IMG/VR virus record: IMGVR_UViG_3300031758_000068
Location: 1-63,596 of that record
Length of the DNA stretch: 63,596 nt
Strand: one strand, 5' to 3'
DNA from: a virus
Each line of letters begins with the position of its first letter. Positions within the stretch are counted from its first letter, which is position 1. Below, one piece after another: positions 1 to 15,988 of this stretch. The notes beneath the pieces are model-generated. The model searched no databases and was not told the origin of the DNA. It was given only the letters and a program-made list of their open reading frames with translations. A program made the translations under genes and the position numbers.

Positions 1-3000
1 CAAGGTCCTCCACCACTTGGATCTAAGTACAGAATCCCGGGAGATACTCTTTACAATCCTACTCCTTACCCCATAGAGGCAGTATCAGACAATGGTATAA
101 GAAAGACACTTAACCCATTTGATACTTCTAATATAAAATTTCCAGGAGCAAACTATGTGGATGAGTATGAGAAGAAAGAAGAAGGAGGAGAGTACTATGA
201 TGATGAACTTACACAAGAAGAGATAGATGATCTTATTGCACAAGGTTATGTTGTAGAAGATCTTCCTAAAGCACAACTAGGTAAAGGTACTACAGTAGAA
301 GTATCACCGTTTAGTCTTAATGCAAATCAATCACAATTAGCTAGTAATGTGTATGGTGAGTATGATCCTGAGTTTTTAATTGGTGCAAGAACACCTTTAG
401 GTGGATCTAGAGATCCAAGGTTCAGCACTGACTTAGGTTTGACATTAGGAGTTCCTTATTCAGGTTCTATGATTCCAAGTGTGAATGCAGATTGGAGATG
501 GAGATATAGACCAAGTGCTGTTAGTGCAGGAGCTTTTGCTCCAACTGTTCAAACAGATATAACACTTGGCTGGGATCCAACACAAGGATTTAATCATAAA
601 ATGGTAGCTAGCCCAAGATGGGAGTTTGGTAATAGAATGCTTGGTGTTTATAGACAACCACGTTGGCCAGTAGGAGCATGGAAAGGTTATGCGGGACCTG
701 CTGCAGGTTGGGAGTTTAGACAACATTCTTTTGTTCCAGGTTTGGAAGGTTATCAAAACACAGGTGAACACCGTACAGGAAATTTTAATTTTGATTACGG
801 TGCTGTAGCTGGTATTGAAGCAAGACCTTTTAAAAGTACACCTTTAAGAGTTGGAGCAGATGCTAGTCTAATGTTTCAACCAGGTAAAGGGCAAGCTGAA
901 GAACAGTTTAATCCTGACACAGATTTTAATACTGTGAAATGGGGGATGACTCCAATGTTAAAAGTAAAAGCTGTTTATCCAATTGGTGCAAACTTGCCTA
1001 AGAAAAAAGAAGCTGAGGAAGAAAAAATTAAAATAGATGCTGCCAGAGCCAATGATAAAAATTTCATGGTTACAGCACCTACTATAACAGGACCTGGAGT
1101 AGATTGGGGGTATGAAGAAAAGCCAGAAAGTACCGGAGTACCTGTAGGATACTTACCAGGATATGAACCTGAAACAGGAAGAAAACTTACTGAGCAAGAG
1201 TTAATGCAAAGATATGGTCAAGGTCCGCGTTTAGCAAAAGGTGGTTCTTTACTTACTAAGAAAGTAACATGTAAAGATTGTGGTTGGAAGTGGAATGCTG
1301 CGGATGGTGGTAATGATGTTACTACATGTCACAAATGTGGTGGTCAAGGATTACTGCATGTGCAAAAAGGTGGACTACCAAAAGCTCAGTTTGGAATGTT
1401 TGATAAATGGAAAAAGAAAAACGTAGACCAAGTTATTGCTGATGCTGAACCACAAGAAGGTGTGCAACAACTTATGGAAGTTGAGGCATCAGGTGATGAA
1501 GCCAAAAAGAAACTGCACATAAGTCTGATGGATAAAGCACGCGCGCTAGGACGTACAGTTGCAGGTAGGAAAGTATGGATGGAGGATGGTCCTAGAAACT
1601 GGACTTTTGATGAAATTCAGGGATACGTTAATAAGGTAAATGATTATAACCAACAAGCACAAAAATATGAGAGAGACCGTAGACTGTTGCAGGACGGTAA
1701 GTTAAGTACAGATGTATTTGCTCAAAGATACAGAGATAACAACTGGGCTAGGTTTGACCAAGCTACTAAAAAAGAAAGTTTTAAAGGTCAGTATCAAAAT
1801 GCCGTTGATGAAGGCATGGCAAGAAAAGAAAAAAACTTTGCTGTTACACAAGGACTGGCGGAGCTTACAGGAGTACCTGCTGCCATGAGAATTGTAAGTG
1901 ATCCTGTAGGTACATTAAAAGGCGTAGGTACAAGTTTAGCGGATCTTGCTATGTTACCATATGCAGCATGGCAAGCAAGGGATTGGGCAGACAATACACT
2001 TAATATGAAGGGTACTTGGAACTTATCTGAGAATCCAATTACAGGACAAGACTTTGGTGAAGGTTTTAATGAATCAATGGATGTTGCTTCTGTTCTACCA
2101 TTTTTTGGTGCAGCTGCAAAGATGCTAAGACCAGCAACAGCAACCACAAAAACTGTAGGTACTACATCTAAGGTGGTTGGTAATACTGTAGGTGAGGGTA
2201 ACGTAATAATGAGTAATCCAAAACTAGCTCGTATTGCCAAAGATTTACCAGATAACCTAGTTGAAAGAAGAATATTTGAATATACAGGTGATGGTAATCC
2301 AAGAAAAATAAGTATTACAAGTGAGGCGGAACTGGAAAAAATATTAAAAGTAGATAGATATAGAATACAGAAACTTAAGAAACAATATCCAGATTTAGAC
2401 TTTAATGATCCTAGTATTAAGGGTTACTATTTTACTGATAAAGAAAGTATAAATAGAATACCAGATATTCTAAAAGGTGCTCAGCAAAATCAAAAATCAG
2501 CAGAGTCCTTTGGAACGTATCTTATGAATGACTATGATACAAAGATGGCCTTTATACAAAAGAGTGGAAACCAACCTTTGATAAATGTAGTTAATGAATC
2601 TCCACAATATTTAGATGAAGTCTATGCACATTTGAGTAGTCCAAACACAGTATCTGATGCTGACTTCTTAAATGATCTTGTAGTAAAAAGTAATAGCTAT
2701 ACAAGATTTATGGAAAGACAGGTAAGTAATGAAGCAGCTAGTGAATTGGTAGGTAGAAACATAGAAAATCCTGGATGGTCTATGGATGTAGAGGGTGTAT
2801 CTCCAAGTGATTACTATGGTGCCTACGGATATAAAATCCGACCTAATATGGATAGGATATATGAAATTGTAAATGCACCTGTAGAACAAAAATGGGGACT
2901 AAGACAACCAACATTTGAAGGTGGTATGAAAATGGTACCTTCAATGCATACAGGGCTTCCTGAGAAAGTTGAAGACTTTCTTAGAATGAGAACTCAAAGA

Positions 3001-3408
3001 TTAAACAGATCTGTTACTAGTAATGTAGGTGAGATTGATCCTTATGAAAAGATATCAAGATGGGATTTATATGCTCCAATGGAATCTAGAGCTAATGTGC
3101 AATTAAGGGAATTTTTACCAAAAGAGTTTGTAGAGTCTAAATATTATACAATACCAAAACATCAGGTATTCAATGTACAAGGTGACTATGGGCAAAAATT
3201 ACAAAATTTTGATGTGTTTGGTTTAGGTAAACTAGAGTTTCCAAAAAACTACACTGGCCATAGAAGTAATCAAGATTACGGAAGATTTTTTGAAGGTACA
3301 GGTAAAGGCTTTGCACGAGGAGGAATAACCATGGGTCAGGAGGTAGACTTAAGTCCAGAACAAGAAGCTCACTTAAGAAAATTAGGATACAAACTTGAAA
3401 GAATATAA
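1..3408 (+). CDS. Giant modular virion-type protein, 5'-partial (beta-barrel-like domain, zinc ribbon, LPKAQ tags)
   Basis: The frame is open from base 1, so the gene begins before the window; the GTG at 157 is probably not its start. Numbering from base 1, residues 71-88 (ELTQEEIDDLIAQGYVVEDL) resemble the C-termini of this gene and of the gene at 10150, and lead straight into a tag LPKAQLG (88-94). Residues about 122-335 are rich in alternating aromatic/glycine beta-strand patterns like an outer-membrane beta-barrel. A zinc ribbon follows (C424, C427, C443, C446), then a second tag LPKAQFG (459-465). Residues about 505-710 are paralogous to part of the next gene. The C-terminus (about 710-1135) is unrecognised and ends LSPEQEAHLRKLGYKLERI. 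The next gene starts 2 nt after the stop. The role is inferred to be structural or ejection-related; no enzyme is identified. Confidence 0.9.
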   Translation, partial: QGPPPLGSKYRIPGDTLYNPTPYPIEAVSDNGIRKTLNPFDTSNIKFPGANYVDEYEKKEEGGEYYDDELTQEEIDDLIAQGYVVEDLPKAQLGKGTTVEVSPFSLNANQSQLASNVYGEYDPEFLIGARTPLGGSRDPRFSTDLGLTLGVPYSGSMIPSVNADWRWRYRPSAVSAGAFAPTVQTDITLGWDPTQGFNHKMVASPRWEFGNRMLGVYRQPRWPVGAWKGYAGPAAGWEFRQHSFVPGLEGYQNTGEHRTGNFNFDYGAVAGIEARPFKSTPLRVGADASLMFQPGKGQAEEQFNPDTDFNTVKWGMTPMLKVKAVYPIGANLPKKKEAEEEKIKIDAARANDKNFMVTAPTITGPGVDWGYEEKPESTGVPVGYLPGYEPETGRKLTEQELMQRYGQGPRLAKGGSLLTKKVTCKDCGWKWNAADGGNDVTTCHKCGGQGLLHVQKGGLPKAQFGMFDKWKKKNVDQVIADAEPQEGVQQLMEVEASGDEAKKKLHISLMDKARALGRTVAGRKVWMEDGPRNWTFDEIQGYVNKVNDYNQQAQKYERDRRLLQDGKLSTDVFAQRYRDNNWARFDQATKKESFKGQYQNAVDEGMARKEKNFAVTQGLAELTGVPAAMRIVSDPVGTLKGVGTSLADLAMLPYAAWQARDWADNTLNMKGTWNLSENPITGQDFGEGFNESMDVASVLPFFGAAAKMLRPATATTKTVGTTSKVVGNTVGEGNVIMSNPKLARIAKDLPDNLVERRIFEYTGDGNPRKISITSEAELEKILKVDRYRIQKLKKQYPDLDFNDPSIKGYYFTDKESINRIPDILKGAQQNQKSAESFGTYLMNDYDTKMAFIQKSGNQPLINVVNESPQYLDEVYAHLSSPNTVSDADFLNDLVVKSNSYTRFMERQVSNEAASELVGRNIENPGWSMDVEGVSPSDYYGAYGYKIRPNMDRIYEIVNAPVEQKWGLRQPTFEGGMKMVPSMHTGLPEKVEDFLRMRTQRLNRSVTSNVGEIDPYEKISRWDLYAPMESRANVQLREFLPKEFVESKYYTIPKHQVFNVQGDYGQKLQNFDVFGLGKLEFPKNYTGHRSNQDYGRFFEGTGKGFARGGITMGQEVDLSPEQEAHLRKLGYKLERI

Positions 3409-3410
3409 CA

Positions 3411-6400
3411 ATGGCAAAGTTCAAGATAACAGGATTACCAAAAGCTCAGACTGGTAAAACATTTAGTAGAACTCAAGGGGGTGAAGATACCTATTACATA
3501 CATCCTGAAAGACCTGGTAGTATCTATACTAAATGGGATGGTAAATGGCATATTAGTAATAGCAGTACAGGTTTTAATTTTGAACCTATTAAAGATCCAA
3601 CAGGAGAAAGGAAAAAAAACTTAAATACAAATGCAGTTAAAGCAACTCAATTTCAACTTGATAGATGGGAGAATTTAAATCCTTATGATAATAGCAAGCA
3701 ACGTAAACATGTAGGAAATGTTGCAGGTGGTATGGATCCTAAGAAGTCTGCAGAACAAATCAAAAAGGCAGATGAACAATTTATGTTTGATTGGGACTTT
3801 AATACAAAAGACCAAAAAGACATGCATCCACGTGATGCTAGTAATGCTATAGAACTTTATAATAAGGGATTGGACTTTCATAAAGGCTGGATGAATTCTC
3901 CTATGTATAAGAAAATGTTGGCTAACTCTATAAATGCAGGAAAAGCATCAGGAGTAGATGAATCTCAAATGGCTCAACAAAGAATACAAAACTTCAGTAC
4001 TATTCCATCCATGCTTTTTCAAAGACAACCAGAAGGTAGAAGTTTTACAGGGGGTCAGTCAATGCCTACTGATGGATCAATTACTATATTTCCATATGGA
4101 GCTGGCGTATCAGATGTGTCAGCACATGAAATAAGCCATTCTATAGATAGACCTGTTAATTATTATGACAGTGATCAAAGGTTAATTCCTCAAGCTGATA
4201 TAAACTATATTCAAAATGTTACACCAGCTTTTAATAACACTCCTAAGTGGCAGGGTTATGATGCTGATTGGCAACAACTTGTTCTTAACAATCCAGACTA
4301 TCTACAAGAAGAAAAAGATTGGGTGAACTATGTATCAAAACCTACTGAAGTTAGAGCACGTCTTAATGCCATTAGAGCTACAGCAAAAGAATCAGGTACA
4401 TATGATCCATATACTCAAGAAGTAACTCCTGAGATATATGATATGTTACAAAAGATGAGTTTTGGTACTGATGAGAAAGAAGGCTTTAATCCAATTGAAC
4501 AACTAAAAGGTATATACTCAGATGAACAAATTATAGAAATGTTAAATAGCATTTCTAAAAATGATAATGATTCTGGTGACATGCTTAATATGGCAAGAGA
4601 AGGTGGTTTTCTACCACATGCTCAGTTTGGCTTTGGCATGGGTAAACTTAGAAAAAGAAAAGTAGGTAAACAAAAAGGTGAGGAGACTCCTACTTTTGGA
4701 CAACCATTACCTACAGATCCTCAAGGTGCTCCTTATGCTTTTGTTGGAGAACGTCCTGCTTGTCCAGAAGGCCAAGTATGGGATGAAAATCTTCAATCAT
4801 GTGTATTACCAGGGATAGTAGAACAACCAACAATGTATGTATCTGCTAATCCAGAAACAAATAAAAAACGTATTAAATTTATAGATAAAGCTAATGCACT
4901 CTGGGATACTATAGAAGGTAGAAAAGTCTGGATGGAAAACGGACCTAAGAACTATTCTCTTAATGAGTTATCCAAGTTTATTAATAATGTAAAAGACTAC
5001 AAAGACCAAGCTGCTGTATATGAGAAATACCGTAGAATGGCTGAGGATGATGAGATCAGTGGGGATGAGTTTGCTAGACTATATAATGAAAATAACTGGA
5101 TAAGATTTGACCAGAATACAGGTAGAGAAAACTTTAAAGGTCAATGGAGAAAAGCTGCACAAGAAGGTATTAAGAAGAAAGCAGAAAATGCTAAATCTGT
5201 AGCTAGTGACATAGGAGACATACTGCATACTGCAGGAGAGTATACAGGAATTAATAGTGTAGGAAGAGTAATAGCAAATCCTATAGAAACATTATCTGAT
5301 ACAGGGCAGAGTATAGTTGACATTGGGATGACTGCTCCAGAAGTTCCATACATGGCATATGATTATCTATCAAATCTATTCACACCATGGAATAGAGAAT
5401 ATGGAAATGAATACTCAGGTACTGAAGACATTAACCCACTTACAGGTCAACCTTATTGGTCAGGTTCTCAGGGAGCAATAGATTTAATTACTTCTTTTCC
5501 ATTTCTTAAAGGTGCATTTACTTTAGGAAATACAGGGTTTAAAGCAGGTGTTAATGCAGTGAATAGAATACCTTCTTCAAAAGTACTCTTTCAATCAGCA
5601 GAACAAAGATTAGGAAACCCAACAGCTTACAATTTACTTCAAGGTACAGAATCAGGAGTAAGGGGAAAGATAGCAGACAAGTACTATACTAATGCTATGC
5701 GGACCGCTGTAAAACAACAGGATGATGCATATCAAAAATTCTTCAAAGCATATGACGAAGGGGATATGGATTTGGCTAAAAGAATAAATGAAACTGAATT
5801 ACAACCTGCTATAGAAAGAGAAAAACTTTTGGCAAATGAGTATGGTGATTGGCGTAGACAATACTCTGGACTACCAATTAGAAATACAGGTCTGGCAGGA
5901 TCAGAAGGAAGTATTTTTACAATCAAGGGAGATCCAACTCAAGTTGTAAAAGTAGGCACTACACCTAATACAGAAGCTGAGTTAAATAAATTAATAGAGA
6001 TAGGTCAGAACTACCAGTTCCCTGGTTCTCAATTTGCATTCCCCACTAGACAGATTAGACTTATGGGAGATAATCAAGTTGCTCAATTTATGCCTAGATT
6101 AAACTTTAATGCGTCTGGTCTTCCGGTAGGTAAAACATTTGATGATGTTGCTGAGGTTGCCCAGGATTTGAATCAATATGGTGTAGGTCTTGATTATGCA
6201 GGTGAAGGTAATATTGGTAGTGTAGGAAATGACTTAGGCTTTGTTGATTTATCTTATATTGGAAAACCTGGGCAAAGAGTAGACTTTTATAACAGGTTTC
6301 CTTATCATAAGCCTGATATGTTTGGTAAAGGCTTTGCCCTAGATGAAACTATTGGTAGTACTGCACAGGGAATTGCAGATGATGCTGCAGGTCTTATGAA

Positions 6401-9400
6401 TAGAGTACGCTCTCAAGGATTATCAGATGATGCTTTAAAAGCAAGATCCGTACAAGAAACAGGGGCTGCCTCTCAAGTTGATGATTCTATTTTAGGTGCT
6501 GATGATGTATACAAAGCTCCTTCACCAGAAGCAATGCAGCGGTACAATAAAGCGATAGAGCACTTTAATAAACATATGTTTTTACCAGAATCTAAATCAT
6601 TACAAGGACGTGAATTGCTGGATGACTTTATATCAAGAATTAACTCAAAAGAAGGTTTAAAAAGACTAGGTGAACTAGGTATAAATGATCCAAAGTATTT
6701 TGAAGATTTAGTGCTTAAAGAAATACAACATGAGTTAGGTTACTTTACAGAAGTAGGTGGTCAACCTATGATAGCTTTACATGCAGGTATGCCTGCAGAG
6801 ATAGCAAAAAATATTACAAGACATGAAATAGAACATGCAGTACAAAGAGCGATTATAAAAAATGGTCAACAACCTTTTAGTGAAATAGATTACATGTTAA
6901 ATGGTCTTACTCTTAAAGGAACACCAAATGTGGCTGTACCAAGAAAGATGACATGGAATGCTATTGAGTTTCCTAAAAATGCTGATTTGTTTCCTAATGC
7001 ACAAAAAAACTTAGACTACTATGCCTTTGGTTCAGGAGGAAAAGAAAAGTCTGCGTTTTTAGCTGAGGTTCAACAGGGTATGCTTGATAATGGAATCATA
7101 GATGATGTTTATGAAAACATCACACCTGAGAAAGTTAAGAAAGCCTACAAACAATTTATAGAGGATCCTAATCCAGATAAATATAACTACAGATTTTTTG
7201 AAATCATGGAGCCCACTGAAGCAAACTTTGAGTTGACTGCCAAAGCCTTGAATAAGATGTTAGCTATTCCTGGTGCAATTGGAGGTGTGGGTACTGCTGG
7301 TTATATGATGAATCAAGGTGTAACAGAACAACCTGTAGAAGGTCTTAAAAAAGGAGGTACTGTAAGTAAGAAATACTCAAGAAGTTTAGAAGCTAAGAAC
7401 CAACTCTATGTAGAGAACAGACTTGTAAAAAAACGTAAGCCTAAGAATAAAAAGATCTTTAGTCCTACTAGTCCATACTTTCAAGCAGGTGGTGAGAATC
7501 AAGTAGAGTGTGATGATGATGGCAGATGTTATGAGACAGATCAGATACAAAATATACTAGATGAAGGATCTTACATCCCTAAAAAGAATGTAAATATTAT
7601 GTGGGATGTTGCAGAAACACCTGGTGCTTACGAAAATGCAAAAAAAATATGGACAGATAAAGGTGCCCAAGTAATATCAAAAAGATTAGGAAATACTCCT
7701 GCTATTACAAATGTTGGCAATTGTATGTGGGCTGGAGGAATGGGTTATCAATGTTTACCAGAAACAAAAGGAAAGATTTCATTAATGCCTTTTGAATCTA
7801 ATGATAAATTTATTAATGCTGTAAACAAAGGTACTGTACCTTTTTCTAGAGTTGCTAAAACACATGATCCAAATTTTGCATCACAAGAAACAGGTATGTT
7901 GCAACAAGGAGACATTATTAATTTTAAAGGTGCGGGTAATTCTCATGCTATGACCTTTTCACATTATGATGAAGATGGTACTCCTATTTTTTTAGATAGT
8001 AATGGTCAAGAAAGTAACTTTGGTTGGAATAGAGGAATGTGGGATCAACTTGTGCCAAATAAAGAAAAAGTTGCATATGTATCTAGATTTAATCCTGAAA
8101 AGTTTTACGAAAAAGATATTAAAACTTTAGAAGAAATGGCTAGGACCAATCCTACTTATGTTCCAGGAACACATACTGTAGGTAAATTACCATTATTACC
8201 TTTAGCTAATTTAGAAATACCTACAGCAGAAAGAGTATTACCAGCAGTGACTCAAACTTTGGGTATGAGAGCATTAGGTGGTATTCCAAACTTACCACTT
8301 AATAAAAATAGAAAAGTTCTTAGAGATTGGACATATGGTCAGTCTATAGGAATGCTACAAGAAAAACATGGAGGTGTACATTATGCACAAGCTGGATTAA
8401 ATCTTCAAGGTGTTAGAACAGCTCCTGTAACTACAAAAGCTGAACCTAAGAAAGAAGTACCTGTAAGAACAGTACCGGTACCTGCAGCAACTCAAATGAA
8501 CCTACAAGGTATACGTACAGCACCAGTAGTAACTAGACAAGAACCTAAGAAAGAATATGTAAAACCAAAACCTCAGAAACTTTCTGGATTTGACATGATG
8601 CATGAGATACATAACATGTATAACAATAAGATTGCAAATGCAAAAGATCTAAGACCTAAGAGTAAAGAAGAACAAAGAAGAGAGACATCACCTCTTGAAG
8701 TGTTTACTGGAACAAATGATTTGTTTAAGAGCTATACTACGGCTGATAGACAAGAGCAGACAGAGTCACCACTAGATATGTTTGGTCATGTTAATGATGC
8801 CTTCAATGAGGCCGCTAATAAACGTTCTAATAGAGTACCTGGAAGACAAGGATCTCCACTAGATATGTTTGGTTTCCCTGAGTATGGTAATCAAGGTGAT
8901 CAATCTTATGAGTTTCCATTAGCTCCAGGCTTTAGTGCAGATCCTACAAGAGGTACTACAGGTCAACCAGTGGAGAACAATCCTTTAGCATTCTTAACAA
9001 ATACAGGTATCTTAGGTCAGATAGATCATGCAAAACTTGCTAGAGATATAGAAAGAGAACAGAACAGACCTAAGTATAAGAACAGAAATGTTGAACCAGA
9101 CTCTTGGTGGGATAATACTGTTGATGTACTTGGTGATGCCGGAGAGTATATACTTGACACTGGTGTTGATGCTGTTAACACATTAGGTGAATGGAAGAAT
9201 ATGGGTAAACGCTATCTTCAAAAAGAAGGGTGGTTGGATATTGAAGAAGAAAAGATTGATCCTAATAAAGCTAAGAAACTGCAACCTAAGATAAAACAAA
9301 CTCCTAAAGTTGAAAAGTTCTATCAAGAGATTGCAGCTGTAGATGATGCTGGTTACTCTGATAATAAACTATTGTCATACCGTAATCAATGGGATAACAA

Positions 9401-10091
9401 TGAAGGCTTTGTCTATATTGCTACACCTACATTGAAGGATAGAACTGGTAAAGAAGAATATAGAAATGTACGTGGCGTAGGTCACTTCCTTTTAGATGCA
9501 TCTGCTGTTCCAGGTAAAGAATACAAGCATGAGTATAATGAAGCTTATTTGAAAAAAGCTATGAAAAATAATGATTGGATACCTACCTTTACACCAGTTT
9601 CAGGAAATAAAGTAAAATTAAAATACAAGAAACCTGATGAAATCACTAAAGAAGACAAGGTAGTTACACCACTTAGACAGTTTAAATTTGATAATTTAGC
9701 ATTTGATAAAACACAAAGACCTGAAGGTTTCCAAGCAGGAATTAAAGAAGTTAAAACAAAAGATGGACAGGGTTCATATTTAATCTTTAAGGATAGAAAT
9801 GGTTATTCAAGATTTAGTGGAGGATCAGTAGTGTTTATATTTAAAGACAAATACGGAAACACAATTGTAAGAGACTTTGCTGGAACACTGAATAACATTG
9901 AAAATGAAGGTCTTGGTATTAAGAAAACATATGGTCTCAAAGATGGTGACTTGACAATTGGTTATCATGATGTAGGATCATTTAGTGCTAAACCAAAGGC
10001 AGATGAATCTGGAGTTTTAAAGTCTTCTCAATGGGGTGACTTTAATCCAGGATCAATGACTGGTGGGGCATTGCTTATTCCTAATCAGTAA
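3411..10091 (+). CDS. 2226-aa modular virion-type protein with two HExxH sites and a papain-like peptidase candidate
   Basis: Begins MAKFKITGLPKAQTG, 2 nt after the previous stop. Modules in order: HEISH (H239, E240, H243), a possible zinc metallopeptidase; tag LPHAQFG (401-407); a domain at about 487-710 paralogous to gene 1; a possible kinase-like fold at about 830-955 (VVKVG, GEGNIG, GFVD); HEIEH (H1138-H1142), a second metallopeptidase candidate; a KKGG element with basic linker ending YFQAGG at about 1360; and a cysteine-peptidase-like domain with NCMW (C1438), NSHAM (H1512) and FLDSNG. After that come a tag-like VHYAQAG (1656-1662), two 20-residue repeats (NLQG[VI]RTAPV...EPKKE) and three SPLxxF repeats. 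The C-terminal about 250 residues form an unrecognised beta-rich domain. Function inferred as virion-associated. The stop codon lies inside a palindrome. Confidence 0.93.
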   Translation: MAKFKITGLPKAQTGKTFSRTQGGEDTYYIHPERPGSIYTKWDGKWHISNSSTGFNFEPIKDPTGERKKNLNTNAVKATQFQLDRWENLNPYDNSKQRKHVGNVAGGMDPKKSAEQIKKADEQFMFDWDFNTKDQKDMHPRDASNAIELYNKGLDFHKGWMNSPMYKKMLANSINAGKASGVDESQMAQQRIQNFSTIPSMLFQRQPEGRSFTGGQSMPTDGSITIFPYGAGVSDVSAHEISHSIDRPVNYYDSDQRLIPQADINYIQNVTPAFNNTPKWQGYDADWQQLVLNNPDYLQEEKDWVNYVSKPTEVRARLNAIRATAKESGTYDPYTQEVTPEIYDMLQKMSFGTDEKEGFNPIEQLKGIYSDEQIIEMLNSISKNDNDSGDMLNMAREGGFLPHAQFGFGMGKLRKRKVGKQKGEETPTFGQPLPTDPQGAPYAFVGERPACPEGQVWDENLQSCVLPGIVEQPTMYVSANPETNKKRIKFIDKANALWDTIEGRKVWMENGPKNYSLNELSKFINNVKDYKDQAAVYEKYRRMAEDDEISGDEFARLYNENNWIRFDQNTGRENFKGQWRKAAQEGIKKKAENAKSVASDIGDILHTAGEYTGINSVGRVIANPIETLSDTGQSIVDIGMTAPEVPYMAYDYLSNLFTPWNREYGNEYSGTEDINPLTGQPYWSGSQGAIDLITSFPFLKGAFTLGNTGFKAGVNAVNRIPSSKVLFQSAEQRLGNPTAYNLLQGTESGVRGKIADKYYTNAMRTAVKQQDDAYQKFFKAYDEGDMDLAKRINETELQPAIEREKLLANEYGDWRRQYSGLPIRNTGLAGSEGSIFTIKGDPTQVVKVGTTPNTEAELNKLIEIGQNYQFPGSQFAFPTRQIRLMGDNQVAQFMPRLNFNASGLPVGKTFDDVAEVAQDLNQYGVGLDYAGEGNIGSVGNDLGFVDLSYIGKPGQRVDFYNRFPYHKPDMFGKGFALDETIGSTAQGIADDAAGLMNRVRSQGLSDDALKARSVQETGAASQVDDSILGADDVYKAPSPEAMQRYNKAIEHFNKHMFLPESKSLQGRELLDDFISRINSKEGLKRLGELGINDPKYFEDLVLKEIQHELGYFTEVGGQPMIALHAGMPAEIAKNITRHEIEHAVQRAIIKNGQQPFSEIDYMLNGLTLKGTPNVAVPRKMTWNAIEFPKNADLFPNAQKNLDYYAFGSGGKEKSAFLAEVQQGMLDNGIIDDVYENITPEKVKKAYKQFIEDPNPDKYNYRFFEIMEPTEANFELTAKALNKMLAIPGAIGGVGTAGYMMNQGVTEQPVEGLKKGGTVSKKYSRSLEAKNQLYVENRLVKKRKPKNKKIFSPTSPYFQAGGENQVECDDDGRCYETDQIQNILDEGSYIPKKNVNIMWDVAETPGAYENAKKIWTDKGAQVISKRLGNTPAITNVGNCMWAGGMGYQCLPETKGKISLMPFESNDKFINAVNKGTVPFSRVAKTHDPNFASQETGMLQQGDIINFKGAGNSHAMTFSHYDEDGTPIFLDSNGQESNFGWNRGMWDQLVPNKEKVAYVSRFNPEKFYEKDIKTLEEMARTNPTYVPGTHTVGKLPLLPLANLEIPTAERVLPAVTQTLGMRALGGIPNLPLNKNRKVLRDWTYGQSIGMLQEKHGGVHYAQAGLNLQGVRTAPVTTKAEPKKEVPVRTVPVPAATQMNLQGIRTAPVVTRQEPKKEYVKPKPQKLSGFDMMHEIHNMYNNKIANAKDLRPKSKEEQRRETSPLEVFTGTNDLFKSYTTADRQEQTESPLDMFGHVNDAFNEAANKRSNRVPGRQGSPLDMFGFPEYGNQGDQSYEFPLAPGFSADPTRGTTGQPVENNPLAFLTNTGILGQIDHAKLARDIEREQNRPKYKNRNVEPDSWWDNTVDVLGDAGEYILDTGVDAVNTLGEWKNMGKRYLQKEGWLDIEEEKIDPNKAKKLQPKIKQTPKVEKFYQEIAAVDDAGYSDNKLLSYRNQWDNNEGFVYIATPTLKDRTGKEEYRNVRGVGHFLLDASAVPGKEYKHEYNEAYLKKAMKNNDWIPTFTPVSGNKVKLKYKKPDEITKEDKVVTPLRQFKFDNLAFDKTQRPEGFQAGIKEVKTKDGQGSYLIFKDRNGYSRFSGGSVVFIFKDKYGNTIVRDFAGTLNNIENEGLGIKKTYGLKDGDLTIGYHDVGSFSAKPKADESGVLKSSQWGDFNPGSMTGGALLIPNQ

Positions 10092-10107
10092 ACTTCTAAA
10101 GTTTACT
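10087..10107. promoter_or_regulatory. 17-bp palindrome (9-bp arms) over the stop codon
   Basis: Arms AGTAAACTT and AAGTTTACT flank a CTA loop; the TAA stop of the upstream gene lies in the left arm. No U-tract follows, so it is a poor classical terminator. The same palindrome core (TAAACTTnnnAAGTTTA) recurs at 15986-16002 at the same distance from the same promoter-like box. It may be an operator or a hairpin at the mRNA end. Confidence 0.55.
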
Positions 10108-10125
10108 CATTAAGATTGAATTTAC

Positions 10126-10135
10126 TATATTTATA
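10126..10135 (+). promoter_or_regulatory. Putative phage promoter box TATATTTATA
   Basis: This AT-rich box lies 14 nt before the ATG at 10150, in one of the few real gaps of the rightward block. The same decamer occurs at 39008 and with one change (TATATTTACA) at 16023, each just ahead of a large gene. It resembles the Bacteroidota TAnnTTTG box but ends in A rather than G, so it could be served by the phage polymerase or a modified host enzyme. Confidence 0.45.
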
Positions 10136-10149
10136 TTATAGCGTATATT

Positions 10150-13100
10150 ATGAAAAAACCTGTAAGAATATATAAAGCACAGTTTGGAGCACAACAGGCT
10201 ATGCAACAGCAACAGGTACAACAACAACCACAAGTAAATGAGGAGATGTTGTATAAAGCTGCTGCTGATATGATGGCACAAGGAGCAGCTCCAGAAGAAG
10301 TGCTTAATCAGTTTGTGCAAAGTGGAGTACCTCAAGAGATGGCTAATGCAGTTATCTCAAATGTTGTAGCATATTTAAATGATGAAGATGCTTATGACAA
10401 TGCTATGAAGTCAGATGACACAGAAGCACAAGAGGAACTAGCTGCTCAAAGACAAGCTGAGGAAGAAGAAGCTGCACAGCAGTTAGCTTACAGAAAACAA
10501 ATGGAAGCTATCTATAACCAAGAAACAGATCCTGGATATGATGAGGAGGACCAAGTCATGCAACAGAATCTTATGCGCTTTGGTGGTAACCAAGTTCCTA
10601 AAAGAACTTTCTTAAAGAAGGCAATGAGTCTTATTAAGAAACAAGACGGAGGTGATGAAGAAGCAGAAGCAACTAATGTTGCAGATAGTACAGATACAGG
10701 TGAGAGAGCTGAGCGCTTGAATAATTTTATAGGTAGTGTACAAAATGCAGCTAATCAATCTTTGATGCAACAGGATGCTGAGAATATGTATGCACAGTAT
10801 CAGCAATCATTTGGTCAACCAGAAGACATGGGACAATATCCTATGGCTAGACGTGGTAGACAAATGGGTCCAGGTAGACAAGAGAGACAAGTGATGAGAG
10901 GAGTAGATAGAATACTCCGCAATATGCCAATGGGAATGACAGGACCTGGTCAAGGTTTTATGCCACCAAATGTTAATGTCTTTAACTTACCTATGATGGC
11001 TGGAGCTGGTATGCCAGATATGCGTCAGATGATGAATATGCCTGATACAGGTTACTATTCAGGAGGTCCTAGACTTGCAAACATTGATGTAAGAAAAACA
11101 GGAATCTTTGGAAGACCTAAAGAGTATACAATTACTTGGGCTAATGACGGTTACTATAATCCTGCAGTAAGACAAGATATCATTAGACAGGAACAACACA
11201 ATGAAGAGAATCAAGTCAAAGATAAGATTACTGATGATAAAGCAGCTACAACTAATACATCAACAGACAAGAATGAAGAGGTTAAGGTAGAGGAAAAGAA
11301 AGATCCTCAAGTAGCTACAGGAGCAAAGACTACAGCACAAACACCTGGTAGAGGTACAGTAGTTGCACCTGATGGTTCAGGTACTTATGTAGACAACCGT
11401 GTTGAAGCACAAGAAGAGCCATGGGCGGGAGCTTTAAGAGATAGAAATGCAGGTATGGCGGGACGCTTTGGATATGATCCTTCTGCTGTAGGTACCGCTC
11501 CTGTGAACACTGCGGGCCAATCTAAGTATATATCAAGTAACACAGGTGCTGTTGACATGAATGCAGTAGGAGCTATTACTTACTATGATCCAAATAAACC
11601 TGGGTACATGTATGTAAGTGATGGTACTAAATGGTATTATGATGCACCGGGTGGTGATATGACATTACAACCAGTTACTGATACTAAAAGGATTTCTTAT
11701 CTTAATGAGAACCTAGAAGGAGCTAATATGTATACGTTACCTTCTAAGAAAGGTTATTACTATAGACTACGTCCAGATGGCGCCTATGCTAAGTACTCTG
11801 GTAACCCCGATGATTATACACCTAGTGCAAAACCAGTACAAGTAATTAAACCTGGTGATGCTAACTATGACTACCTAAACAAGAATAAGCAATACTCTTA
11901 CTCTTATGTGGGCAAGCAACAGTTTGGTGGAAATACTAATCAAGCATCAGGGCTTACTAAGTTTGTGAATGGCGGAGATGATATCAGCATTCCAGTAACC
12001 GGAGGTAAACTTACAAATGATCCATACTTTAGAGATGGTGGTTTGTATAAGTTCCAAGGTACAGGTGATAGTCAAGTAGATGCTGGAAATACTACAACAC
12101 CTGAAGTTACTAACCAAGAGTTGTATGACTTCTTAAAGACACAAGGATACAATGTTGGTGAGTACAGAGAAGGTATTGACTACTCACAGTTAGTGGGTGG
12201 TAAAGGAAATACTGGTTATAGTGATCCTTATTTGGAAGGAAGATCTAGTATGCCATGGTATACTAGTAGTAATGCACCACAAGGAAGCTATTACCCACAA
12301 GGATACGGACCTTATGCATATGGTCAAGGATACTATCCACCAGCTATGGGGTACAATAATCCTTACATGGGTAACTACAATATGTATAACCAAGGAATGG
12401 GAGCAATGTACCCACCTTTGTTTGGAAATAGATTCGGTCCTACAGGAAAAGTGTTTGAAAGAGCAGGTTCTTGGTTGCAACAATCTGGTTTACCATTTGA
12501 CCCTACTACAGGTTTACCTATTACAGGTATGTTAGGTCAGCAACCTATGAGTAAGTTTGAAGTTACTAAGTCAGGTATGTTTGGACCTAAAGAGTTTGCA
12601 ATGTACTTTGGTGATCAAGGTGATGGTGAATACAAAGGTGCTGACTTTGGAGATTATAAAAATCCATTTACCGCAAGAGCTGAAGCAGAGGCAGCAGCTA
12701 ATGCAGGGACCTCAAAGAATCCTAAAACAGATGATAAGGGTAGAATTCTATCCTATGCTCAAGGTGATGATTATGACTTTAATCAAAATAAAGAAAATAG
12801 ACAGCAAAACAGATTAAACAGACAACTTGAAAGAGGTGTACAAAGATATGATAGACAGGCTAGACAAGATATGCAAGTACCTGAAGATATTCAGCAAGGT
12901 GTAAATGCATATCAAGGATTCAAAAATCGTGCTAATCAATCTCTTACCCGTGCCTATGGTGGTCAACAACTTCCACAAGCTCAAATGATGGGTGAATTTA
13001 ATGCTGGTGTTAGTGATATTCCTGCAGGATACTACAGAGATAATGTTACGGGTCTTATAAAGAACAACAATGGAATGACATATTCACCTTATGCTGGGTA

Positions 13101-13797
13101 TGGATACAACACAGATAAGATTATGGATACTGATTGGACTAATCAGTACATGGCTTATGGTGGTGTACCAATGGCTCAGTATGGTTTTAGTTCAGGTTCT
13201 GCTAATCAATATGGCTTTAACTATGATCCTGCTTCTATGGATTCAGAAGAAACACAATTCAATAACTGGTGGGGTGGTCTTGGTAGTTCAAGAATGGATG
13301 AAATTCTTGCTCAACAAGAACGAGAGCTTCAAGATATGAATGCTTATGATGTAGACATTGATGCTGAAAATGCTTCAATGGATGCATTTGCTGAGAGTAC
13401 AATGGCTAAGAAACAACCATGGGCAGTAAAAGGAAAAATAAAGAACATGTTTAATGTTGACTTAGAAAGAGGTGTTAATGAATTCAACAGATATGCTGGT
13501 GCTGCTCTTAATCCTTTTGAAAGAGCTGACAATAGAATATCAGCTCCTAACATGATGGAACTTACTGGGTCAGAAAGAAACTATGGTAACAAGTGGTATC
13601 AGAACAAAGGAAGAGACCCTGAAACAAATAGTGGATTGTCTTTCATAAACCAGATGGGTGCTAAACTTCAAAAGAAAGGGAACGCTCAAAAGAAAAAAGG
13701 TGGTTCTACATATAAAGAGGGTGCAGTAACTTATATGTCTGCTAAACAAGTTGAGGAATTTATTAAACAAGGTGGTAAGCTTGAATTTATAAAATAA
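10150..13797 (+). CDS. 1215-aa Gln/Tyr/Gly-rich modular virion-type protein
   Basis: Starts MKKPVRIYKAQFGAQ, a variant of the KAQFG tag, followed by a Gln-rich and acidic helical N-terminus. A unit at about 240-345 (IDVRKTGIFGRPKEY) is echoed at about 755-830 (FEVTKSGMFGPKEF), an internal duplication. Residues about 690-760 are a low-complexity segment dominated by Tyr, Gly, Pro and Asn, prion-like in composition. Further tag variants are LPQAQMMG (941-948) and GGVPMAQYG (about 1004-1012). The C-terminus, MSAKQVEEFIKQGGKLEFIK, resembles that of gene 1. No catalytic motif is visible. It probably belongs to the same virion family as its neighbours. It has its own promoter-like box; the next ATG is 4 nt after the stop. 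Confidence 0.93.
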   Translation: MKKPVRIYKAQFGAQQAMQQQQVQQQPQVNEEMLYKAAADMMAQGAAPEEVLNQFVQSGVPQEMANAVISNVVAYLNDEDAYDNAMKSDDTEAQEELAAQRQAEEEEAAQQLAYRKQMEAIYNQETDPGYDEEDQVMQQNLMRFGGNQVPKRTFLKKAMSLIKKQDGGDEEAEATNVADSTDTGERAERLNNFIGSVQNAANQSLMQQDAENMYAQYQQSFGQPEDMGQYPMARRGRQMGPGRQERQVMRGVDRILRNMPMGMTGPGQGFMPPNVNVFNLPMMAGAGMPDMRQMMNMPDTGYYSGGPRLANIDVRKTGIFGRPKEYTITWANDGYYNPAVRQDIIRQEQHNEENQVKDKITDDKAATTNTSTDKNEEVKVEEKKDPQVATGAKTTAQTPGRGTVVAPDGSGTYVDNRVEAQEEPWAGALRDRNAGMAGRFGYDPSAVGTAPVNTAGQSKYISSNTGAVDMNAVGAITYYDPNKPGYMYVSDGTKWYYDAPGGDMTLQPVTDTKRISYLNENLEGANMYTLPSKKGYYYRLRPDGAYAKYSGNPDDYTPSAKPVQVIKPGDANYDYLNKNKQYSYSYVGKQQFGGNTNQASGLTKFVNGGDDISIPVTGGKLTNDPYFRDGGLYKFQGTGDSQVDAGNTTTPEVTNQELYDFLKTQGYNVGEYREGIDYSQLVGGKGNTGYSDPYLEGRSSMPWYTSSNAPQGSYYPQGYGPYAYGQGYYPPAMGYNNPYMGNYNMYNQGMGAMYPPLFGNRFGPTGKVFERAGSWLQQSGLPFDPTTGLPITGMLGQQPMSKFEVTKSGMFGPKEFAMYFGDQGDGEYKGADFGDYKNPFTARAEAEAAANAGTSKNPKTDDKGRILSYAQGDDYDFNQNKENRQQNRLNRQLERGVQRYDRQARQDMQVPEDIQQGVNAYQGFKNRANQSLTRAYGGQQLPQAQMMGEFNAGVSDIPAGYYRDNVTGLIKNNNGMTYSPYAGYGYNTDKIMDTDWTNQYMAYGGVPMAQYGFSSGSANQYGFNYDPASMDSEETQFNNWWGGLGSSRMDEILAQQERELQDMNAYDVDIDAENASMDAFAESTMAKKQPWAVKGKIKNMFNVDLERGVNEFNRYAGAALNPFERADNRISAPNMMELTGSERNYGNKWYQNKGRDPETNSGLSFINQMGAKLQKKGNAQKKKGGSTYKEGAVTYMSAKQVEEFIKQGGKLEFIK

Positions 13798-13801
13798 CAT
13801 T

Positions 13802-15988
13802 ATGTATTACAAAGTAAAAATCACAGCGCTTCCAGAAGCAGCATACGGTAGATCAGTTAAGACAGGTCAACAGATGAATGGTGCCCTTGCAATTCAACCT
13901 ACAGCAATGGGTGGTGCAGACATTGATCAGTACATAGGTGAGAAAGAACTCAAAGTTCAGAAGACTATTCAACCTATTGATAGAGAAAAGGCTAATGTAG
14001 AAGTTGAGAAGGGTGAAGTTGTAGTTACTGATAATGGTGATGGTATTCCAGAAACATATGTAGCCGGAGGTAAACGTCACTCAGCAGGTGGTACACCACT
14101 TAACTTACCAGATGACTCTTTCATTTTCAGTGATACTAAGTCAATGAGAATCAAAGATCCAGAAATCTTAAAGATGTTTGGTAAGAAAAAAGGTTCTTAT
14201 ACTCCAGCTGACTTAGCTAAACAGTATGATATCAATAAGTACAGACAGATACTACAAGATCCTAACTCTGATGCTATTGATAAGAAGACTGCTGATTTGA
14301 TGATCAGAAACTATACAATGAAACTTGGTGGGTTAGCCGTAGCACAAGAAGGTAAGAAAGCATTCCCACAAGGTATTCCAAAAATTTCTGAGCCATTCTT
14401 GGAAGCTATGGGTATTCAGCAAGAAGCTATCATGCCTACTTATCAACCACAGACTCAGGCACCACAGGATGAGCAAGAAATGATGGGTAATCCTGGTGAA
14501 GAAATGGCAGAACAACAAATGATGCCAGAGGATCAAATGATGATGATGCCACCACAAGACCAAGGTATGCCACCAATGGCAGCTTACGGTATGGCTATGG
14601 GTGGATATGAAATGCCATTTGCTCCTGACTATGCTTACGGTGGTTTGTTCAAAGCTGTTGAAGGAGTAGAAAGTACAACAGATGTTACTCCTTATACAGG
14701 GGGTAAAACAGTAGCTGGTAGTAAAACACCAACTGGTAAGTCTAATGCTTATGCTTCCAATAATGAACCTCTTGATCAACACTTAGGACGTTGGGAAAAG
14801 GTTGTTCCAGGTATTTCAACTATGTCAGATGCAGAAGCTCAAAAAGCAATGTATGACTGGAGCTTAGCAAATAATCCAGATGCTATTAAAGCAATGTGGA
14901 AAGAATGGGGTAATACTACAGAAGGAAAAAAATATGCATCAATTAGAGCATTAGCTCCTAATGGTGTATTCACTGATGAAGTATTAGATGATCCAGCAAA
15001 TCTTGCTATGTTACGTGCTGCTTATGTTGATGGAAAATTTGGAGCAAGACAGATCAAACCAAAAGAACCAGAACCAGAACCTGCAAAAACTGAAGAACCA
15101 AAAACTCAAGATAACACCCAGATTCAAATTACTGATAATAAACAAAGACAGCAAATACAAAGACCTGATCTATTTAATTTCCAGGCACCACCACAAATTG
15201 CTGATTCTGTACAGGCTGAGTGGACTTCACCAGACATCATGAATTACTATGGTGCCTTGAAAGATAGAAACTCATTGCGTCAGTATTTTCCATGGGCTGC
15301 TCCAATTGATATGGAAGAAATGGAACCTACTTACTTAGATCCTACTAGAGAATTAGCACAACAAAGTGAGGATGCAAACATTGCAAGTCAAGCATTGGCT
15401 ATGTTTACTGGACCAAAGGCATATTCTTCTAGAGCATCACAAATCCAAGGAGAAGGCGCTAAGCAAGCAGCAAATACACTTTCTAGATATAACAATGCTA
15501 ACGTAGGTATTGCTAATCAGTTTGAGCAAGCTAACGTAGGTATTAGAAATCAAGAGAGAGCAGCTAACCAAGCTATTAGTAAACAGATCTATGATCAGAC
15601 AGTATTGACTAATGCTAACTATGATAGAGATAAGAGATTAGCTGATAGTGTAGTGAGACAAGCATTTGCTACAGGTTGGAAGAATGCATCTGACATTGCT
15701 ATGTTGAATGCAACATCTGACCAGTATGATATTGACCCAAGAACAGGGACTGTTAGATTTATTCGTGGTAAGAAACCAAGAGCAGATAAAGCTAGGAACT
15801 TTGATGAGCTTTTTGTTTACTATAGAAGTATGGGACTGAATCCAAAAGATGCACGTGAGAATGCTAAGGCTGCATTAGGTGATTATACTGGTTATACAGG
15901 ACCTGCAAGAACAGATGATTATGACCAATATAAAGCAGGTGGTGTCTTTGTTTTAGGGCCAGGAATGTTTCCTCCACTGATCATGTAA
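13802..15988 (+). CDS. 728-aa conserved crAss-type protein with LPEAAYG tag (GGTPLNLP module)
   Basis: Starts MYYKVKITALPEAAYG, matching the start of the gene at 3411 (KFKITGLPKAQTG). Residues about 50-125 contain EVEKGEVVVTDNGDGIPE and GGKRHSAGGTPLNLPDDSF. From memory this segment recurs in uncultured crAss-like phages, but it has no known function. A Met/Gln/Pro-rich stretch follows (about 225-280), then a helical module (about 325-420) with MYDWSLANNP and AAYVDGKFG, a Pro/Glu linker (EPEPEP), and a C-terminal helical region rich in Ala, Asn and Gln (about 520-640). It ends GGVFVLGPGMFPPLIM. The likely role is virion assembly or cargo; no enzyme motif is seen. The stop lies in the second copy of the palindrome. 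Confidence 0.92.
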   Translation: MYYKVKITALPEAAYGRSVKTGQQMNGALAIQPTAMGGADIDQYIGEKELKVQKTIQPIDREKANVEVEKGEVVVTDNGDGIPETYVAGGKRHSAGGTPLNLPDDSFIFSDTKSMRIKDPEILKMFGKKKGSYTPADLAKQYDINKYRQILQDPNSDAIDKKTADLMIRNYTMKLGGLAVAQEGKKAFPQGIPKISEPFLEAMGIQQEAIMPTYQPQTQAPQDEQEMMGNPGEEMAEQQMMPEDQMMMMPPQDQGMPPMAAYGMAMGGYEMPFAPDYAYGGLFKAVEGVESTTDVTPYTGGKTVAGSKTPTGKSNAYASNNEPLDQHLGRWEKVVPGISTMSDAEAQKAMYDWSLANNPDAIKAMWKEWGNTTEGKKYASIRALAPNGVFTDEVLDDPANLAMLRAAYVDGKFGARQIKPKEPEPEPAKTEEPKTQDNTQIQITDNKQRQQIQRPDLFNFQAPPQIADSVQAEWTSPDIMNYYGALKDRNSLRQYFPWAAPIDMEEMEPTYLDPTRELAQQSEDANIASQALAMFTGPKAYSSRASQIQGEGAKQAANTLSRYNNANVGIANQFEQANVGIRNQERAANQAISKQIYDQTVLTNANYDRDKRLADSVVRQAFATGWKNASDIAMLNATSDQYDIDPRTGTVRFIRGKKPRADKARNFDELFVYYRSMGLNPKDARENAKAALGDYTGYTGPARTDDYDQYKAGGVFVLGPGMFPPLIM

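Follow-up and report, generated by a model that had tools for sequence, protein, structure and literature searches.

A short tag and a C-terminal cap mark the ends and joints of probable virion cargo proteins in a crAss-like phage lineage

Polyvalent proteins of phages and conjugative elements are very large polypeptides with disparate enzymatic domains (zincins, ART-PolyVal, GNAT and peptidoglycan-targeting domains) that are proposed to enter the host with the DNA and are possibly processed by zincins (Iyer et al. 2017, PMC5512222). A different arrangement is described for phage T4, where an N-terminal capsid-targeting sequence of about 10-20 residues is common to diverse internal proteins (IPI-III and Alt) and is removed by the prohead protease (PMC3012670, PMC7411985). 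Among the crassviruses, which have been called the most abundant viruses in the human gut, crAss001 carries gp45 (cargo protein C1) and gp46 as virion cargo (Bayfield 2023, PMC10172136). The subject here is a short peptide tag, LPxAQxG, that recurs in the first four genes (genes A-D) of the virus record IMGVR_UViG_3300031758_000068; the whole stretch of 63,596 bases that was analysed is referred to as the window.

The proteins encoded by genes A-D and by the corresponding gene blocks of related records belong by domain content to the polyvalent proteins: zincin, SET, lysozyme and ART domains occur among them, as does a predicted outer-membrane barrel, and several relatives combine at least two disparate domains in a single polypeptide. 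The relevant passages of Iyer et al. (PMC5512222) mention neither a conserved end or joint motif nor crAss-like phages, whereas the window block has a joint motif. As in T4, a short N-terminal peptide is found on otherwise unrelated probable cargo (genes B, C and D and their relatives), the likeness drawn being one of arrangement, but the block tag is also accompanied by a C-terminal motif and by internal copies at joints. Gene D and crAss001 gp45 both lie between the muzzle and C2 genes, and gut C1 homologues swap modules bounded by Gly-Gly (GG); the window block is expanded to four genes. On the sequence evidence set out below, the tag is a genuine signature of ends and joints in probable virion cargo proteins, and it extends across the lineage. 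The motif was not found in the open-licence literature by title or abstract, including searches on crAss combined with zincin, protease/cleavage, polyvalent and polyprotein themes, and a text search for 'LPKAQ' returned no phage paper by title.

Occurrence of the tag in the window and in related records

A preliminary description of the window had listed nine tag sites in the first four genes, and all nine are in frame, on the forward strand. In gene A (1..3408), the start of which lies beyond the 5′ end of the window, LPKAQLG (262..282) is fused straight to a preceding C-terminal motif shortly before a barrel module, and LPKAQFG (1375..1395) follows KGG behind a zinc ribbon. Gene B (3411..10091) has LPKAQTG at its start (3435..3455), LPHAQFG (4611..4631) after EGG at the end of its first zincin module, and the variant VHYAQAG (8376..8396) after HGG. 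Gene C (10150..13797) carries KPVRIYKAQFG at its N-terminus, of which YKAQFG (10171..10188) is the tag variant, and has two internal tags, LPQAQMMG (12970..12993) and VPMAQYG (13165..13185), each preceded by YGG. The N-terminal tag of gene D (13802..15988) is KVKITALPEAAYG, with LPEAAYG at 13829..13849. The N-termini of genes B, C and D (MAKFKITGLPKAQTG, MKKPVRIYKAQFG and MYYKVKITALPEAAYG, respectively) bear out the further statement that three of the genes open with a tag-like start.

Defined strictly for the window as [LIVMF]PxAQx(1-2)G, the tag occurs six times in genes A-D (5,304 residues), compared with a mean of 0.06 and a maximum of 2 in 2,000 shuffles, and not at all in the four later giant proteins (9,627 residues), from which the looser tag family of the preliminary description is also missing, as had been noted there. 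That looser family, which was fitted post hoc, has nine members in genes A-D against 0.16 after shuffling, and the bare core AQx(1-2)G does not reach significance by itself in these genes (11 against 4.75, with a shuffle maximum of 13). Since the looser family was derived from these same sites, the stronger support comes from outside the window, in related records.

In 20 related sources, 35 copies of the strict form [LIVMF]PxAQxG were counted among 53 block proteins (60,370 residues; 0.24 after shuffling), 24 of which carry it, and a single copy among the 236 non-block proteins (123,747 residues) of the same sources. A relaxed form is found 48 times in block proteins, in 18 of the 20 sources, and twice in other proteins. 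The two outside matches are small basic proteins of the sources G002 and G005, the G002 gene lying between capsid-region and tail genes. Block proteins were defined by their position between two landmark genes; the blocks of L042, L047, L049 and L050 were completed by hand, and nine non-block or partial genes were taken out. The sources G002, G005 and G008 were found with the tag pattern itself, in a search that returned eight loci, and the other records (L numbers) by protein similarity, the search with the A-type protein of G002 returning 26 loci. Excluded were L046 (a truncated copy of L047), G001 (near-identical to the window) and L052-L056, which matched only by short stretches around the zinc ribbon and have no block there. 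Two of the eight pattern matches, G006 and G007, come from phages of 43-44% GC and were also dropped; a 127-residue protein of G006 has LPKAQFG outside any block, probably by chance. As a separate observation, small basic Gly/Lys-rich proteins encoded near the capsid genes of G002 (L012 10573-11571 and 14710-15444), outside the block, repeat the tag-like peptides KYQTGG, LPKANKG and MPKAQMGG.

When tags of the same genome were compared (55 pairs, 15 genomes), 115 of 239 same-residue positions had identical codons, against 114.8 predicted by codon usage, indicating that it is the peptide that is conserved and not recently copied DNA.

The C-cap and the two-part joint

In most cases the tag follows GG or a C-terminal motif of roughly 25 residues, here termed the C-cap, with a consensus of about LTxEEIxxLxxxGYxxExI, whose alternating pattern suggests a strand-helix-strand unit. 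The window contains an internal C-cap in gene A (EGGEYYDDELTQEEIDDLIAQGYVVEDL, 181..264, forward strand) and C-terminal ones in gene A (3316..3405, last residues KLERI) and gene C (13696..13794, last residues KLEFIK). Across the block set of the 20 sources, at an independent E-value (iE) below 1e-5, there are 38 C-cap matches inside the block and one outside; 22 end within five residues of a true C-terminus, and the remaining 16 are internal. Every internal C-cap runs directly into an N-type tag (LPxA in five, SVPxL in five and xxYxxGG in six), so that a fused joint looks like two gene ends put together. Read in this way, the tag alone is not the unit and is one side of a two-part joint. The nearest Pfam family to the C-cap is DUF7210 (PF23843), which has no known function and is matched partially: 6 of 14 segments match at E values up to 1 (best 6.9e-05), and the whole L038 protein scores 14.1 bits against a family cut-off of 27.

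Single modules can be followed from one placement to the other. In G002, one gene ends in ..GYKLERI and the next opens with MAKFKITGLPKAQYG followed by the barrel module, and in the window the same barrel comes after an internal ..GYVVEDLPKAQLG. The zincin module shows the converse placement: gene B of the window opens with MAKFKITGLPKAQTGKTFS and then the zincin, which in G002 is internal and comes after KKGGLVKAQNGKSFG. Each of the four non-redundant barrel copies found is closely preceded by LPxAQxG, at a gene start in two of them (G002 and L034) and inside a protein in the other two (the window and L088); three kinds of context are represented. Judged by these arrangements, a gene end and an internal joint can stand in for one another. 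The earlier remark that the motif is kept while the neighbouring domains change is supported by these barrel and zincin modules, which swap between start and internal placement.

The gene D family gives a view of the tag in which the tag was not used as bait. An alignment-based search, of which the best 80 of 275 qualifying loci were grouped into 51 clusters, gave 42 clusters with an N-terminal tag by pattern; by eye, the nine misses comprise four C+D fusions that open with a C-type end and five altered versions. In the 42 tags, Q is replaced by R in 30 and by K in 9. The gene just upstream of D ends in a C-cap (iE <1e-4) in 43 of 50 cases, and inspection by eye reveals one in three of the other seven. 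D-type proteins (window 15938-15985 and homologues) also have a conserved hydrophobic tail after GG, for instance MGxxxxPFMFY or GPGMFPPLIM.

The positions of joints relative to domain borders were assessed by all-against-all comparison of the block proteins, which gave 206 clustered homology breakpoints in 39 proteins. Of these, 83 lie within five residues of a GG or a tag, where 1,000 circular shifts averaged 24.8 and never exceeded 39, and GG alone accounts for 79 (22.9 expected). Alignment ends favour high-scoring residues, which may inflate the GG figure; as a control, GG ranks first among the 60 commonest dipeptides at breakpoints, for which the median ratio is 0.91. Tags alone are within 12 residues of 14 breakpoints (4.6 expected, maximum 11 in 500); of the 29 internal tags, 14 lie that close to a breakpoint. 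GG marks borders more often than the full tag does (501 against 40 sites), and it is also mildly raised outside the block (636 against 539 shuffled, compared with 677 against 459 in block proteins), so GG alone is not specific. The preliminary description had considered that the motif might fall at random positions inside domains or in a buried core strand. The clustering at breakpoints is at odds with random placement, and in two AlphaFold2 (AF2) models the tags lie outside the confidently folded parts, the predicted local distance difference test (pLDDT) score at the gene D tag being about 30.

Joints of other types were also seen. In phi4:1 gp39-gp41 (L147 4088-11970) and phi14:2 gp081 (L059 9942-11723), GG-x-VDPP-[ST]K stands before zincin modules, and phi4:1 gp41 also contains NGNLTYAQAGG. 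A third type, GGWLDKYxxGG internally and NGWLDKYQ at the C-terminus, is present in L049, L050 and L051.

Possible functions of the caps

LPxAQxG may be the N-terminal half of a two-ended cargo label on the modules of large multi-enzyme crAss-like phage proteins, a reading that is adopted tentatively and given somewhat less than an even chance. In the N-cap, LPxA[QRK]xG would come after a short strand, which is either K-V-R-I-like or the final strand of a C-cap, and the C-cap would form the other half. Both halves are conserved, and both are found at genuine protein termini or where modules meet inside a protein. By analogy with T4, a common virion or assembly partner (the portal, the tail barrel or a C1-like protein) might recognise the ends and bring about loading into the particle. 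When modules fuse, the label would be kept at the joints, which would stay exposed between separately folding modules.

Several observations weigh against a cargo label. The RNA-polymerase-like giant and the neighbouring giants should also be virion cargo, yet they lack the tag, which therefore cannot be a general packaging signal. No tag was found in two of the 20 sources (L038 and L043), and the crAss001-type C1 proteins examined are without LPxAQxG. Different joints seem to be in use in other lineages (GGxVDPP in phi14:2 gp081 and phi4:1 gp41, GGWLDKY in L050). Overall confidence in both AF2 models is low (mean pLDDT 55.7 and 50.1), and by composition the tag flanks are no more disorder-prone than the rest of the same proteins (p = 0.69).

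Proteolysis offers a different explanation, in which the GG-LPxAQxG and C-cap junctions are cut by an embedded zincin or another protease before or after ejection. Zincin processing of polyvalent proteins has been proposed, and DdrB of phage P1 is described as cut before packaging (Iyer et al. 2017, PMC5512222); HExxH motifs are abundant in block proteins (21 against 0.35 shuffled, in 14 of 20 sources), and joints that are fused in one phage are matched by gene breaks in another. However, the caps are conserved even at genuine N- and C-termini, which call for no cut, and on this ground a cargo label is preferred over a pure cut site. Replacement of Q by R or K in 39 of the 42 N-terminal D tags, the lack of HExxH among the block proteins examined in 6 of the 20 sources, and a main text of Bayfield 2023 (PMC10172136) that contains neither 'cleav' nor 'protease' point the same way, and processing is considered rather unlikely. 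If the joints are cut, the junctions given here would allow a direct test of the zincin processing that has been proposed for polyvalent proteins.

The GG-rich joints could also be flexible spacers tolerated at recombination points, the peptide being inherited without a function of its own. Such passive linkers would fit the finding that GG alone marks most of the marked borders and that many joints are without the full tag. They are nonetheless thought unlikely, given that codon agreement at the level of codon usage does not trace the identical peptides to recent DNA copying, that the tag precedes unrelated modules and also stands at the N-termini of separate gene families, and that the C-cap is conserved at C-termini. 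Very unlikely is a role of the joints in ejection, by which they would let modules unfold and pass the portal and tail separately: partial unfolding of cargo during ejection is inferred by Bayfield 2023 (PMC10172136), and the tags lie in stretches modelled at low confidence, but the specific letters of LPxAQxG and the conserved C-cap would be left unexplained.

A bolder version of the cargo label, which we regard as speculative and improbable, is a two-ended address code (the LPxAQxG N-cap plus a C-cap mini-domain) that loads swappable effector modules, one of them a virion-delivered outer-membrane beta-barrel possibly giving the cargo passage across the host outer membrane, with joints that let modules join by fusion while the address is kept. 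The caps may bear on the question of how crassviruses select their cargo. If they are loading signals, crAss-like virion cargo would be recognisable from sequence alone, and a short tag would be at hand to try for loading proteins into particles, as the T4 sequence does.

Module content, cargo status and gene neighbourhood

Pfam domains in block proteins of relatives include SET, SLT, PG_binding, GNAT, Amidase_2 and ART-PolyVal, in the combinations (some below the Pfam cut-off) SLT + SET + PG_binding in L041, ART-PolyVal + SET in L036, SET + GNAT + PG_binding in L047 and Amidase_2 + SET in L048. SET-domain matches also lie near the N-terminus of the A-type proteins of L041, L036, L047, L048 and L045. 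Genes A-D of the window have no Pfam match and nothing convincing in PHROGs. Gene B has two HExxH regions: a zincin-like module (HEISH; 3462..4586, forward strand as for all modules here) has tags at both borders, and further modules with the second HExxH follow, as does a basic linker module (7347..7493) bounded by GG. In gene A the internal C-cap and tag are followed by a predicted barrel module (283..990, residues 95-330), a zinc-ribbon module (1246..1365) with GG at either border, the second tag, further modules and the C-terminal C-cap.

An AF2 model of gene A residues 58-475, made from four sequences (mean pLDDT 50.1), has ten antiparallel-looking strands, for which ten-residue blocks mostly score between 50 and 86; residue 37 of the model is the last of the tag, and the strands begin at residue 41. 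Foldseek returned outer-membrane barrels (OpcA at E 1.3e-4, OmpG and OmpA), and VIA matched the model to a designed 10-strand barrel (Z 14.7 over 142 residues, 2.6 A) and to pOmpT (Z 11.7 over 189 residues, 3.8 A). From this shallow alignment, the module is predicted to be a 10-strand transmembrane beta-barrel. To our knowledge, which no literature search has supplemented, a transmembrane beta-barrel inside a probable virion cargo polyprotein is unusual.

Gene D is likely the counterpart of the crAss001 cargo protein C1 (gp45), an assignment that rests on position and on weak profile similarity. It stands in the order muzzle - C1 - C2 - RNA polymerase, and in G002, G008, L034, L035, L039 and L044 a D-like domain is found between the muzzle-position gene and the MATYL-type gene. 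By hhalign the D family matches the gp45 family weakly (probability 74.7, P 2.6e-5) over gp45 480-544, in the portal-bound domain, and against gp45 alone the probability is 0.1, with no single-sequence homology found. With the D model, Foldseek had no match below E 0.001 and none to gp45, VIA gave only generic, mostly helical matches and no gp45, and a sequence search of the PDB with D gave only matches at E 0.15 and 0.59. Searches of named phages by tblastn with D, the D-like protein of G008 and the A-type protein of G002 gave no match.

Links to cultured phages come from profiles. A hidden Markov model of the D core matches phi4:1 gp40 (E 2.7e-06) and p-crAssphage gp47 (0.02); gp40 also matches the N-terminal module of gene A (8.6e-09), and the zincin module is matched by phi4:1 gp41 (E 7e-10) and phi14:2 gp081, E-values for crAss001 and phi14:2 (L057-L059) being taken from iterated profiles on a set that already included those records. 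The proteins phi4:1 gp40, gp41 and phi14:2 gp081 are annotated as structural by tandem mass spectrometry, and the block proteins are probably carried in the virus particle. In the Leptolyngbya phage Lbo-JY46, a 484-residue protein opens with MKIRIIGLPKAQIG and a 674-residue protein ends in a C-cap (E 4.8e-06).

Where they are recognisable, a muzzle-position gene and a gene with a MATYL (or similar) start bracket the A-D-type genes and are followed by the giants, and the block genes thus share a neighbourhood with crassvirus cargo genes. The 4379-residue giant of the window resembles crAss001 gp50, annotated as a putative RNA polymerase; together with the shared gene order, this identifies the virus as crAss-like. 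Neither the major capsid protein (MCP) nor the portal was seen in the window. At E 1e-5, the MCP of G002 has 10 matching records, with Lbo-JY46, csAssE-Sib and the Cellulophaga phages phi4:1 and phi17:2 among them and none of the crAss001 type; no Crassvirales label is attached to the three records consulted. In C1 of gut crassviruses (Bacteroides phage DAC15, L063 5425-7923; cr85_1, L062 4693-7464), GG-bounded modules are duplicated or inserted, among them a tandem GGGIHIK module and a lysozyme-like insert, with the same kind of border as in the block.

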